From: Janibacter terrae NBRC 107853
GTDB taxonomy: Bacteria > Actinomycetota > Actinomycetes > Actinomycetales > Dermatophilaceae
DNA: 64,000 bases
Reading direction: 5' to 3'
Assembly: GCF_001591405.1 (NCBI RefSeq)
Contig: NZ_BCUV01000006.1
Location: 806,001 to 870,000 of the forward strand
Of the stretch, positions 30,646 through 45,975 are shown in pieces. A program made the translations under genes and the position numbers. The notes under the pieces were generated by a model. The model searched no databases, was not told the DNA's origin, and saw nothing but the letters and a program-made list of their open reading frames with translations. Positions within the stretch are counted from its first letter, which is position 1, and each line of letters starts with the position of its first letter.

Positions 30646-31964
30646 GCCGGCTCACCCCCTTCGTCGCTCGTGGCGTCCGTCTCGACGAACCGCAACCGGT
30701 CCACACGACGGGTGTCCATGTCGGCCACCGTGACCTGCCAGCCCTCGAGCTCGACGACGTCGCCGACCTCGGGCACCCGGCCCAGCTCGGCCATGACCCA
30801 GCCGCCGACGGTCTCGTAGGACGAGCCTTCGGGCACGGGCGCGCCGATGCGGTCACGCACCTCGTCGGGGCGCCACAGCCCGGGCACGGTCCAGACACCG
30901 TCGCCGAGCGCGCGGCCGGTCGTCTGCGCCTTGTCGTGCTCGTCGTTGACCTCGCCGACGATCTCCTCGACGAGGTCCTCGAGCGTCACCACGCCCGCGG
31001 TGCCGCCGTACTCGTCGACGACGACGCCCATCTGCAGGCCCGAGTCGCGCAGCTGGATGAGCAGCGGGTCCAGGCGCAGGGTCTCGGGGACGACGACGGG
31101 GTCGATCATCAGCGCGGAGATCGGCACGGACGCGCGACGCTCGTGCGGCACAGCGATGGCGCGCTTGACGTGGACGACGCCGTCGATGTCGTCCCAGTCC
31201 TCACCCGTGACGGGGAAGCGCGAGTGGCCCGTGCTGCGCGCGAGCGCGACGAGGTCCTCGGCGGAGGCGGTGCGGTCGATCGAGGTGGCACGGTTGCGCG
31301 GAGTCATGACGTCGGCGGCGGTCTGGTCGCCGAAGCCGAGCGAGCGGGTCACCAGGCGCGCCGTCCCGGAGTCGAGCGTGCCGGCCTCGACAGAGGTGCG
31401 CACGAGCGAGGCGAGCTCGGCGGGGCTGCGGGCGGCGGACAGCTCCTCCTGCGGCTCGACGCCCAGGCGGTGGAGCACCCAGTTGGCGCTGCCGTTGAGG
31501 ATGAAGATCAGCGGCTTGAAGAGCACACCGATGATGCGCATCGGCAGCGCGACGACCTTGGCCGTGGCGAGCGGCGCCGAGACGGCGAGGGTCTTGGGCA
31601 CCATCTCGCCGAGGATCATCGAGAACGCGGTGGCGATGACCAGCGCGAGCCCGGACGCCGTGGAGCCGGCGACGGCCTCGGACATGCCGGCCGCCTCCAG
31701 CCCGGGCGAGATGAGCGCGCCGATCGCCGGGTTCGCGATGAAACCGAGGGCGAGCGTGGTGACCGTGATGCCGATCTGGCACGCGGACAGCAGCGTGGAG
31801 AGGGTGCGAAGGGAGGTGAGGACCGGCTTGGCCGCGGTGTCCCCGTTGTCGACGGCCCGCTGCACGGAGGGGCGGTCGAGGGCCACGAGCGAGAACTCGG
31901 CGGCGACGAAGAGGGCGGTACCGAGGGTCAGGACGAGGGCGAGGACGAGGAGACCGATGGTCAT
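30642..31964 (-). CDS. CNNM/CorC-type membrane protein with CBS pair and CorC_HlyC domain
   Basis: 440 residues. An N-terminal CNNM/DUF21 domain (MTIGLLVLALVLTLGTALFV start, EMVPKTLAVSAPLATA) is followed by a CBS pair (VMTPRNRATSIDRTASAEDLV) and a CorC_HlyC domain at the C-terminus (about 345-430, WTVPGLWRPDEVRDRIG). The ATG at 31964 is chosen over an earlier start that would translate repeat sequence. It forms a tandem pair with the gene above, a common arrangement in actinobacteria, perhaps as a heteromer. Confidence 0.9.
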   Translation of the reverse strand: MTIGLLVLALVLTLGTALFVAAEFSLVALDRPSVQRAVDNGDTAAKPVLTSLRTLSTLLSACQIGITVTTLALGFIANPAIGALISPGLEAAGMSEAVAGSTASGLALVIATAFSMILGEMVPKTLAVSAPLATAKVVALPMRIIGVLFKPLIFILNGSANWVLHRLGVEPQEELSAARSPAELASLVRTSVEAGTLDSGTARLVTRSLGFGDQTAADVMTPRNRATSIDRTASAEDLVALARSTGHSRFPVTGEDWDDIDGVVHVKRAIAVPHERRASVPISALMIDPVVVPETLRLDPLLIQLRDSGLQMGVVVDEYGGTAGVVTLEDLVEEIVGEVNDEHDKAQTTGRALGDGVWTVPGLWRPDEVRDRIGAPVPEGSSYETVGGWVMAELGRVPEVGDVVELEGWQVTVADMDTRRVDRLRFVETDATSDEGGEPA

Positions 31965-31992: not shown

Positions 31993-32183
31993 CACCGCTC
32001 CCTGAGACTCCCCGCCCAGCGCTCCCTGAGGAGGTCGCGCAGCGACCGTCTCGAAGGGGGCGCCGGCCCCGCGCACGCTCCACCCACCGCTCCCTGAGGA
32101 GGTCGCGCAGCGACCGTCTCGAAGGGGGCGCCCGCCCCACCGCTCCCTGAGGAGGTCGCGCAGCGACCGTCTCGAAGGGGGCG
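31993..32183 (+). repeat. REP-like palindromes, left array (three full units plus a stub)
   Basis: Units of about 45 bases start near 32020, 32087 and 32137, with a truncated one near 31993. Each reads CGCTCCCTGAGGAG, then GTCGCGCAGCGAC, then CGTCTCGAAGGGGG. The centre is a GGTCGC-GCA-GCGACC hairpin and the flanks CCCTGAG/CTCGAAGGG extend it. All units point their CGAAGGG end toward the GIY-YIG gene, whose stop is 7 bases beyond the last unit. Confidence 0.9.
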
Positions 32184-32189
32184 CCCACC

Positions 32190-32468
32190 TCAGCTCCGCC
32201 GCCTGGCCGCCGCCTGGATCGCGCCGAAGTCCCCCCGGATGAGCGCCTCCTTCTTCGCGCGCGACCAGCCGTGCAGCTTCCGCTCCAGCGCATACGCCTC
32301 GACGACGCGCTCGGTCTCCAGCGACCAGACGAGCTCCACGGGTGTGCGGGTACTCGTGTACTGCGCTCCCCTGCCTGCGCTGTGCTGGCGCAAGCGCGAC
32401 TCCAGGTGGTGCGTGCTGCCGACGTAGTAGCTCCCGTCGGCGCACCTGAGCATGTAGACGTGTGCCAT
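32190..32468 (-). CDS. GIY-YIG nuclease family protein
   Basis: 92 residues, a stand-alone GIY-YIG domain of the YhbQ/UPF0213 kind. The motif reads VYMLRCADGSYYVGST (residues 4-19), so the first half is VYML rather than GIY. The catalytic arginine is Arg25 (LESRLRQH), and the metal glutamate is Glu62 in AYALERKLHGWSR. All key residues are present, so it should be an active small nuclease; the DNA target is unknown. It is isolated from other genes and bracketed by inverted arrays of REP-like palindromes on both sides. Confidence 0.88.
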   Translation of the reverse strand: MAHVYMLRCADGSYYVGSTHHLESRLRQHSAGRGAQYTSTRTPVELVWSLETERVVEAYALERKLHGWSRAKKEALIRGDFGAIQAAARRRS

Positions 32469-32532
32469 CGCTCGATCCCAGCAGGGTCGGCGAGGGGACG
32501 AAGGGAGTTATCCACAGTTGTCGGCGGCGGCG

Positions 32533-32816
32533 CGCCCTTCGAGACGGTCGCTGCGCGACCTCCTCAGGGAGCGGTGGGGGTGGCCCCCCTTCGAGACGGT
32601 CGCTGCGCGACCTCCTCAGGGAGCGGTGGGGGTGGCCCCCTTCGAGACGGTCGCTGCGCGACCTCCTCAGGGAGCGGTGGGGTGGGGCCTCCTCAGGGAG
32701 CGGTGGGGTGGGCGCCCTTCGAGACGGTCGCTGCGCGACCTCCTCAGGGAGCGGTGGGGTTGCGACCTCCTCAGGGAGCGGTGGGGTTGCGACCTCCTCA
32801 GGGAGCGGTGGGGAGG
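32533..32816 (-). repeat. REP-like palindromes, right array (four full units plus three half units)
   Basis: Full units lie near 32533-32580, 32585-32634, 32637-32683 and 32712-32760. Half units holding only CCTCCTCAGGGAGCGGTGG lie near 32688, 32764 and 32791. Orientation is opposite to the left array, so the CCCTTCG ends again face the GIY-YIG gene. The array fills most of the 429-base gap between that gene and the ABC transporter; the last 80 bases hold the transporter's ribosome site and probably its promoter. Confidence 0.9.
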
Positions 32817-32897: not shown

Positions 32898-33872
32898 ATG
32901 ACGAAAGAGGGCGCGCGCGTAGAGGTGCGCAACCTGACCAAGAGGTTCGGCAGCTTCACCGCTGTCGACGACCTGACCTTCTCGGTCGAGCCTGGCCGGG
33001 TCACCGGCTTCCTCGGCCCGAACGGCGCCGGCAAGACGACGACCCTGCGCATGCTGCTCGGCCTCGTGCGCCAGAACCACGGCACGGCGACCATCGACGG
33101 CAAGACCTACCGCGAGCTCGACCAGCCGCTGCGGGTCGTCGGTGCCGCGCTGGAGGCGACCAACTTCCACCCCGGCCGCTCGGGCCGCGACCACCTGCGG
33201 GTGCTCGCCGCGACGATCGGTGCGCCGAACAGCCGTGTCGACGAGCTCCTCGAGCTCACCGGCATCCCGGCCGCCGCCCGCAAGAACGCGGGCGGCTACA
33301 GCATGGGCATGCGCCAACGCCTCGGGCTGGCCGCGGCCCTGCTCGGCGACCCCCGGCTGCTCGTCCTCGACGAGCCGGCCAACGGTCTCGACCCCGAGGG
33401 CATCCGGTGGCTGCGGGGGTTCCTGCGCCACCTCGCCGACGTCGAGGGGCGCACGATCCTCATCTCCAGCCACATGCTGCAGGAGATCGAGCAGACCGTC
33501 GACGACGTCGTCATCCTCGCCAACGGCAAGCTCGTGAAGGAGGGCACGGTCGACGACCTGCGCGGCGGCGCGACCACCCTCGTGCGCACGACCGACCCCG
33601 ATTCCCTGCTCGGCGCCCTTCGGGTCGCCGACGTCGTCGCCTCCCGCCAGGAGGACGGCGGCATCGTCGCCCAGACCGAGGACCTGCGCCTCATCGGCGA
33701 CGTCGCGCTGCGCGCCGGCGTCCCGGTGCACGAGCTGCGCTCCCTCGGCGCCGACCTCGAGCAGCTGTTCTTCTCCCTCACCGAGGGCACCAACCGCAAT
33801 CTCGCCACCGGGGGGCCCTCCGCCCCGGCCACGGCCGCCACGATCGAGGGCAAGGAAGGGGTGAACGGCTGA
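32898..33872 (+). CDS. ABC transporter ATP-binding protein
   Basis: 324 residues with one nucleotide-binding domain. Walker A is GPNGAGKTT (40-48); Walker B is LLVLDEPANGLDPEG. The signature sequence is YSMGMRQRLGLA, typical of the DrrA/CcmA-like ABC-2 export group, where LSGGM is often altered. The C-terminal 90 residues are an accessory domain. A GAAGGGGG ribosome site precedes the ATG. The stop overlaps the permease start (TGATG). Substrate is unknown. Confidence 0.92.
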   Translation: MTKEGARVEVRNLTKRFGSFTAVDDLTFSVEPGRVTGFLGPNGAGKTTTLRMLLGLVRQNHGTATIDGKTYRELDQPLRVVGAALEATNFHPGRSGRDHLRVLAATIGAPNSRVDELLELTGIPAAARKNAGGYSMGMRQRLGLAAALLGDPRLLVLDEPANGLDPEGIRWLRGFLRHLADVEGRTILISSHMLQEIEQTVDDVVILANGKLVKEGTVDDLRGGATTLVRTTDPDSLLGALRVADVVASRQEDGGIVAQTEDLRLIGDVALRAGVPVHELRSLGADLEQLFFSLTEGTNRNLATGGPSAPATAATIEGKEGVNG

Positions 33873-45750: not shown

Positions 45751-45975
45751 CACCGCTCCCTGAGGAGCTCGCGCCCCCCTCACCGTTCCCTGAGGAGCTC
45801 GCGCACTGCTCACCGCTCCCTGAGGAGCTCGCGCAGCGCTCACCGCTCCCTGAGGAGCTCGCGCACTGCTCACCGCTCCCTGAGGAGCTCGCGCACTGCT
45901 CACCGCTCCCTGAGGAGCTCGCGCACTGCTCACCGCTCCCTGAGGAGCTCGCGCAGCGAGCGTCTCGAAGGGGGC
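45751..45975 (+). repeat. Tandem array of seven 30-bp REP-derived units
   Basis: Units begin at 45751, 45781, 45811, 45841, 45871, 45901 and 45931, exactly every 30 bases. Each is CACCGCTCCCTGAGGAG then CTCGCGC plus a variable end (ACTGCT, AGCGCT or CCCCCT). Only the last continues into the full palindrome (GCGCAGCGAGCGTCTCGAAGGGGG). It is a half-element expansion of the repeat family that flanks the GIY-YIG gene, with G/C exchanged at matching arm positions. It fills most of the 249-base gap after rmlA. Confidence 0.92.

Follow-up and report, generated by a model that had tools for sequence, protein, structure and literature searches.

A GIY-YIG nuclease gene bounded by hairpin repeats in Janibacter and its relatives: a candidate REPtron-like unit

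A small GIY-YIG nuclease gene of Janibacter lies between inverted arrays of a hairpin repeat that is also dispersed through its genome, and close relatives of the gene in other phyla are likewise accompanied by hairpins, most of which face the gene. Gene and repeat probably form a REPtron-like unit, in which a GIY-YIG gene is bounded by its own hairpin repeat and the repeat, dispersed non-autonomously, would be spread by cleavage and repair.

The nuclease and its flanking repeat arrays

The window (the whole 64-kb stretch of DNA that was analyzed) belongs to a Janibacter genome of 3.58 Mb. The original prediction placed one 92-residue GIY-YIG gene at the locus, and the Pfam search confirmed it: the gene (32190..32468, reverse strand) encodes a minimal, single-domain protein for which PF01541 was the sole family matched (E 1.3e-16), while a search of NCBIfam returned no family at E 0.001. 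Arg25 and Glu62, predicted to be intact, are invariant in all 92 aligned homologues, identifying a GIY-YIG superfamily domain with its catalytic Arg and Glu; C9, Y15, G17, P43, W68, and K72 are also invariant, and H29 is nearly so. The AlphaFold2 model is confident (pLDDT 94.4), and its nearest folds in Foldseek are the UPF0213 proteins 1ZG2 and 1YWL, followed by Slx1-Slx4, with E < 0.001 for 1ZG2 only. As the protein has no second domain, either its single nuclease domain or a partner must provide recognition. The protein tree, which like the 92-row alignment omits the broken copy at locus L047, has few columns and leaves 46 of its 89 inner branches open. Most Janibacter genomes contain two further GIY-YIG frames, one of ∼650 residues and one of ∼575–950, sizes that we take to be those of UvrC and a DnaQ-type fusion, respectively, and weaker GIY-YIG matches occur in frames of 206–430 residues in G001, G005, G006, G008, and G014.

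Three full repeat units on the left of the gene and four full plus three half units on the right had been claimed, and all were found in place; one further left partial unit, comprising the tag and CCCTGAG (31996..32006, forward strand), was absent from that inventory. The left units, all on the forward strand, consist of the tag CGCT and the hairpin CCCTGAGGAG..CGTCTCGAAGGG and occupy 32020..32058 (hairpin 32024–32058), 32088..32126 (hairpin 32092–32126), and 32141..32179 (hairpin 32145–32179). The right units with their tags, all on the reverse strand, occupy 32535..32573 (hairpin 32535–32569), 32587..32625 (hairpin 32587–32621), 32638..32676 (hairpin 32638–32672), and 32715..32753 (hairpin 32715–32749), and are joined by reverse-strand partial units at 32688..32702 (tag and start of the 5′ arm), 32762..32780, and 32789..32807 (both tag and 5′ arm). 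The strands of the units bear out the proposed flip in orientation across the gene, with the CGAAGGG ends facing the gene from both sides. All seven full 35-nt units are identical, and each is preceded by CGCT. A lone unit of the same family lies away from the gene, at 45938–45972 on the forward strand (L022); its inner stem (CTCGC/GCGAG) differs from that of the array units but is compensated. Copying from the tag end, suggested by the retention of the tag and 5′ arm in all four partial units of the window, was rejected, as the truncated units of the family as a whole (74 versus 60) have no consistent polarity (p 0.26).

The Janibacter repeat is polar, with a short 5′ tag placed directly before an imperfect hairpin that carries a GA bulge on its 3′ arm; in the window unit, the tag CGCT is followed by the bulged 35-nt hairpin with a 6-bp inner stem and a 3-nt loop. 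Two window units folded as single-stranded DNA gave this bulged hairpin at −13.7 and −14.9 kcal/mol, values equaled or bettered by 12/200 and 6/200 shuffles, respectively. The inner stem covaries: among 20 distinct 34-nt Janibacter units, picked among the matches listed, 98.3% of the cells are paired and 21 cells are changed on both sides, and none of 500 shuffles scored as high on either measure. Units of the Janibacter type keep an unchanging foot, and their inner stems differ by substitutions that preserve pairing. Other species have a short 19-nt form (CCCTGAGCTTGTCGAAGGG) that is without such an inner stem and folds weakly (−1.0 kcal/mol, matched by 76/200 shuffles). The tag, as CG[CGT]T, precedes CCCTGAG in all 19 of the units dispersed in the host genome (≤3 mismatches), and nothing is conserved on their 3′ side. 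Hairpins across the family follow the plan X-GAG-inner part-TCGA-X′, X′ being the reverse complement of an outer stem X that varies by lineage (mainly GGTC, TCCT, GGTT, and CCCT). At the 93 homologous loci described below, the four positions before X are uneven in composition (C at 68; G at 65 or T at 26; C at 58; T at 57 or A at 22), and there is little conservation after X′.

Association of gene and hairpins across the family

The association of gene and hairpins is general and not peculiar to the Janibacter locus. Homologues were collected from 117 genomes (the host genome and its relatives, of which 16 had a match) and from the best 80 of at least 567 relatives in named genomes, giving 93 counted loci from five phyla; judged by record titles, the subfamily occurs in at least Actinomycetota, Pseudomonadota, Chloroflexota, Fibrobacterota, and Bacteroidota. 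Loci L034, L039, L042, and L045 (the same as L077, L078, L087, and L117) were dropped before counting, as were L046 (a near-copy of L036) and L048 (the second piece of the gene at L047); the close pairs and triplet L035/L036, L122/L129, and L031/L032/L033 and the broken copy L047 were retained. The sampled species are related, and the p values are therefore optimistic. An earlier search for the CCCTGAG type within 1.5 kb of the gene gave arrays or units at five Janibacter loci only (L030–L034) and single units at L035 and L041; the homologues beyond these have other outer stems. A loose hairpin caller matched 93/93 loci within 400 bp but also 1081/3200 random placements, and it was replaced by stricter callers and a gene control. 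With the stricter caller, a hairpin is present within 300 bp of the gene at 92/93 loci, and on both sides at 75/93, compared to 400/3200 random placements, made in loci long enough to take them; because the 80 named loci represent the nearest relatives, the figure of 92/93 applies to this portion of the family. The strictest caller (TCGA only) matched 89/93 loci and 266/3200 random placements. A motif-free comparison of the left and right flanks gave an inverted score above all 60 random placements in the same locus for 68 of the 80 named loci.

The GIY-YIG genes were also compared with other open reading frames (≥120 residues) in the same loci, 9 of the 93 lacking full 300-bp flanks and thus leaving 84. 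Any hairpin within 300 bp was found at 83/84 GIY-YIG genes versus 31/222 other frames, hairpins on both sides at 71/84 versus 4/222, and hairpins facing inward on both sides at 47/84 versus 0/222. These counts bear on the simplest alternative, that hairpin repeats favor insertion around non-essential small genes and that the association is meaningless. The 31 other frames with a hairpin nearby speak for such a passenger gene, but none of the 222 has inward hairpins on both sides (a comparison that, owing to the 120-residue minimum, is not a small-gene control), the more distant GIY-YIG genes are small too and, with one exception, are without hairpins, and the type of repeat in the flanks matches the repeat family of the genome. 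We consider this alternative very improbable.

The hairpins tend to point inward but do not always do so: of 167 sides, the nearest hairpin faces the gene on 128 and points outward on 39. Where inward hairpins are present on both sides, the two share the outer stem X at 54/69 loci, compared to 10.4 expected by random dealing. In three Janibacter genomes (L035, L036, and L037), the nearest inward hairpins are of the GGCT type on the 5′ side and the GATT type on the 3′ side, a difference that is kept although the genes are on opposite strands.

The association is also specific to one GIY-YIG subfamily. The more distant relatives (L187 and L191–L204, from chromosomes, plasmids, and phages) have no hairpin within 300 bp in any of 15 cases, including yhbQ of Escherichia coli, yazA of Bacillus subtilis, and relatives on plasmids, secondary replicons, and phages; the examination of such relatives, including the three nearer ones named below, covered E. 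coli and 17 out of 36 plasmid and phage records. Among relatives on viral contigs, only the closest (55% identity) of 32 has a hairpin. Nearer to the subfamily, L188 and L189 from Methylobacterium plasmids or replicons (51–56% identity) have hairpins on both sides, both outward, and L190, a Sphingomonas relative (49% identity), has a hairpin on the 5′ side only. The proposal that the nuclease belongs with the repeats is thus strongly supported across phyla, by the near-universal presence of hairpins at the counted loci, by the inward pairs confined to GIY-YIG genes in the same-locus control, and by the distant relatives without hairpins. The original interpretation is thereby supported in part, the cutting of the repeats and their mobility by break and repair being putative. 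As a separate observation, the Sphingomonas relatives L190 and L191 (44–49% identity) are found in tight neighborhoods, with nrdR and an RNA methyltransferase gene or with rnc and era, and are possibly settled host genes.

Repeat dispersal, insertion sites and the DnaA-box-like site

A genome-wide search for the unit, as the original prediction had proposed, gave 26 places with ≤3 mismatches to the 35-nt pattern and none for the reversed control pattern. The exact pattern is present at only 3 of the 19 dispersed places versus all seven units beside the gene, and this homogeneity of the arrays fits local amplification. The original prediction would further have repeat copy number depend on the gene, and here the outcome is divided: total numbers in the 10 carriers and six non-carriers among the Janibacter genomes do not differ significantly (p = 0.19), whereas by type repeat abundance and gene are correlated. 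The carriers of clade A, the clade of the window gene (G000, G004, G010, G012, and G015), have 39, 84, 46, 55, and 12 CCCT-type units and 14, 15, 13, 16, and 8 GG-type matches, respectively, and the clade-B/C carriers (G005, G006, G007, G009, and G013) have 1, 21, 6, 25, and 7 CCCT-type units and 48, 106, 41, 27, and 53 GG-type matches; the ratio of the two types separates the five carriers of clade A completely from the five of clades B/C (p 0.008). The GATT type was matched only in three clade-B carriers (G005, G007, and G013), mostly beside the gene.

The non-carriers fall on both sides. G001, G002, and G014 have no CCCT-type units and 4–6 GG-type matches, which look like chance, while G003, G008, and G011 have 8, 43, and 19 CCCT-type and 12, 30, and 81 GG-type matches (20, 73, and 100 for the two counted types together), from which it follows that the repeats need no gene to persist. 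G008 and G011 are read as putative losses of the gene, and G008 contains a longer, 337-residue frame with a weak GIY-YIG match (E 1.2e-4), making another enzyme possible there. Two types were searched for in 50 genomes: at least five GGTT copies (9 to 222) are present in 12/12 genomes with a GGTT-flanked gene versus 11/38 others, and at least five TCCT copies in 13/15 genomes with a TCCT-flanked gene versus 1/35 others. The 11 genomes that have GGTT copies but a gene with other flanks count against a strict link. Part of the link is with phylum; within Actinomycetota (genomes sorted by hand), the GGTT figures become 12/12 versus 11/21 (p 0.005). As a rule, the type found in the flanks has dispersed copies elsewhere in that genome, and the type that a genome carries tends to go with the clade or the flank type of the gene. 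Contigs of three draft genomes end within or beside repeats at the gene (L031, L034, and L041), and draft assemblies may therefore undercount the repeats.

Outside the unit, the left neighbor is a membrane protein gene (30675..31964, reverse strand), presumably of the CNNM/CorC type, and the right neighbor (32898..33872, forward strand) is one that we take to encode an ABC-type ATPase. The nuclease gene is present in 10/16 Janibacter genomes, and the orthologous CNNM-ABC site is present without it in 11/16. The interval between the two neighbors measures 862–978 bp with gene and arrays in G000, G010, and G012; in G015, the gene is at this site and the contig ends there, and in G004, the contig ends in the repeat type that flanks the gene on another contig. 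In G001, G002, G003, G005–G009, G013, and G014, the interval is 38–330 bp, without gene or full unit (although half a unit survives in G009). The interval of G011 measures 245 bp and contains a complete unit and a damaged one but no gene. The gene lies elsewhere in G005, G006, G007, G009, and G013, with flanks that by eye look shared among them, and the insertion sites thus differ between clade A and clades B/C. In G054, another genome of the family, two copies of the gene are found at separate places (L043 and L047), both GGTC-flanked and sharing almost no 20-mers, and the second copy (L047) is frameshifted. Two 3.3-kb stretches of G013 that differ by one mismatch (L036 and L046) lie near the opposite ends of a single contig, where the assembly may be redundant.

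Within one genus, the same intergenic site has alleles with and without the gene, as a homing-type selfish nuclease gene would also leave: such a gene would cut one target, it and its bordering repeats would be copied in by double-strand-break repair, and the repeats would be cut sites or leftovers, not mobilized in trans. GIY-YIG is, moreover, a homing nuclease fold. Against this, these repeat types also occur dispersed, with copy numbers that often reach tens to hundreds, the 92-residue protein lacks a separate DNA-binding domain, and the insertion sites of the clades differ as described above; we give this explanation little credence.

Upstream of the gene, 39 bp from the start codon, is a DnaA-box-like site, TTATCCACA (32508..32516, forward strand), which is the only exact copy on either strand of the 64-kb window. 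With ≤1 mismatch, the motif is found within 150 bp upstream of the start at 29/93 loci and on the 3′ side at 0/93; scrambled motifs matched at 0–3 of 93 loci and random 170-bp stretches in 33/3720 cases. In the same loci, it is upstream of 25/84 GIY-YIG genes versus 3/222 other frames. The sites are mostly actinobacterial, being present at 28/59 loci from Actinomycetota (a count that takes in 13 loci from the family of the window) versus 1/28 from Pseudomonadota, and 26 of 30 sites lie 37–52 bp from the start. This putative site could tie expression of the nuclease to replication.

The upstream site and the persistence of repeats without the gene in G003, G008, and G011 both accord with a different role for the enzyme, as a host-serving, Slx1-like or UPF0213-like nuclease that removes the hairpins or cruciforms of parasitic repeats, with the adjoining repeats acting as regulatory or feedback sites and another enzyme moving the repeats. 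The closest folds, UPF0213 followed by Slx1-Slx4 (with branched DNA substrates named in its entries), point the same way, as does low pairwise dN/dS (0.06–0.28 for six Janibacter loci, dS reaching 1.6). However, the patchy presence of the gene in Janibacter, the gene-free orthologous sites, and the second, frameshifted copy in G054 look mobile, not housekeeping, and mostly inward ends with matching outer stems are transposon-like. A host-serving role is on balance unlikely, though the strongest of the alternatives to the REPtron-like unit.

Proposed route of spread and relation to known systems

RAYTs, the known REP enzymes, are HUH tyrosine transposases with covalent chemistry; GIY-YIG enzymes hydrolyze DNA and keep no covalent link to it. 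RAYT-like excision and rejoining is therefore unlikely here, and host repair would do the copying of the repeat. For the REPtron-like unit, we infer cleavage of the hairpin, together with a position for the cut, a role for the tag, and a route of copying, along the following lines. Once single-stranded or extruded, probably at the time of replication, the hairpin with its tag and bulge would be recognized and nicked by the nuclease; strand invasion, gap filling, or ligation by the repair machinery of the host would then copy the repeat into new sites, and the same repair may expand and homogenize the arrays around the gene.

The closest known parallel is the RAYT/REPtron, and Nunvar 2010 (PMC2817692) names as the lines of evidence that established RAYTs the inverted flanking REPs, the co-variation of repeat and gene, and a link to repeat abundance. 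The present locus matches this layout, with inverted flanks, co-variation, and a link to abundance that appears by type but not in the total numbers of carriers and non-carriers (p 0.19); the inverted flanks are present in the window and, in the family (75/93 loci on both sides, 47/84 both inward), are a strong tendency, not an ‘always’. In both systems (for REPtrons, PMC2817692 and Corneloup 2021, PMC8266576), short inverted hairpin repeats flank a nuclease gene and are also scattered over the whole genome, the repeat co-varies with the gene by lineage, and each repeat has a short tag at its 5′ side and a stem that is imperfect and bulged. They differ in the fold, HUH in RAYTs versus GIY-YIG here, with no HUH Y1 domain in the present protein, and in the tag, GTAG in RAYT REPs versus CG[CGT]T at all 19 dispersed units of the host genome. 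A search for PF01797, the RAYT-type HUH Y1 transposase family, matched none of the 16 Janibacter genomes (one of them 79% complete), while the control was matched in 5/14 genomes.

The CGTC-tagged REPs, mainly alphaproteobacterial, are reported to have stems of 8–9 bp and loops of 4–5 nt and to be without a dedicated transposase (Di Nocera 2013, PMC3733652). Some alphaproteobacterial repeats of the homologue set are similarly preceded by CCTC or CGTC and an A; the repeats described here, however, have a variable inner stem and a conserved, bulged GAG/TCGA foot, which sets them apart from that description, and the window unit has neither the tag nor the stem and loop of those REPs. Placing the two in one family was attractive, since the CGTC REPs have no known enzyme, but the stem and loop lengths differ from the published ones, and the identity is not claimed.

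Among GIY-YIG proteins, the small UPF0213, YhbQ, and YazA proteins (1ZG2 and 1YWL) have the same single-domain fold and are the nearest solved relatives, but no hairpin of this kind lies within 300 bp of any of the 15 more distant members that were examined. Slx1-Slx4 has a related GIY-YIG catalytic fold that, from the titles of its structure entries, acts on branched DNA, whereas the 92-residue protein has no second domain. Penelope-like elements with a GIY-YIG endonuclease (PMC3846280) provide another case of this domain in a mobile element; they are eukaryotic retroelements related to telomerase reverse transcriptase, in contrast to the single 92-residue gene here. A literature search, with subscription papers and preprints mostly outside its scope, found, among the papers listed, none linking a GIY-YIG nuclease with REPs and nothing on YhbQ; in PMC9465073, the two genes only appear together in the table of a pangenome.

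Short hairpin repeats with no known spreading enzyme are present in many bacterial genomes, and the GIY-YIG subfamily is a candidate for one large class of them, with a fold unrelated to that of the known REP enzyme and a route that would differ from the known one. The clear anatomy (tag, bulge, and flanking arrays) and the controls at hand (gene-free sites, catalytic residues, and cognate and non-cognate repeats) make the question directly testable. We lean towards a second, independently evolved class of REP-mobilizing enzymes, a GIY-YIG subfamily in at least five phyla that would create and spread the large family of X-GAG..TCGA-X′ repeats through hydrolytic cutting of the hairpin and repair by the host, with a DnaA-box-like site as its putative control in many Actinomycetota. 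If this is true, the layout of the REPtron has evolved on two or more occasions, with chemistry that differs between them.
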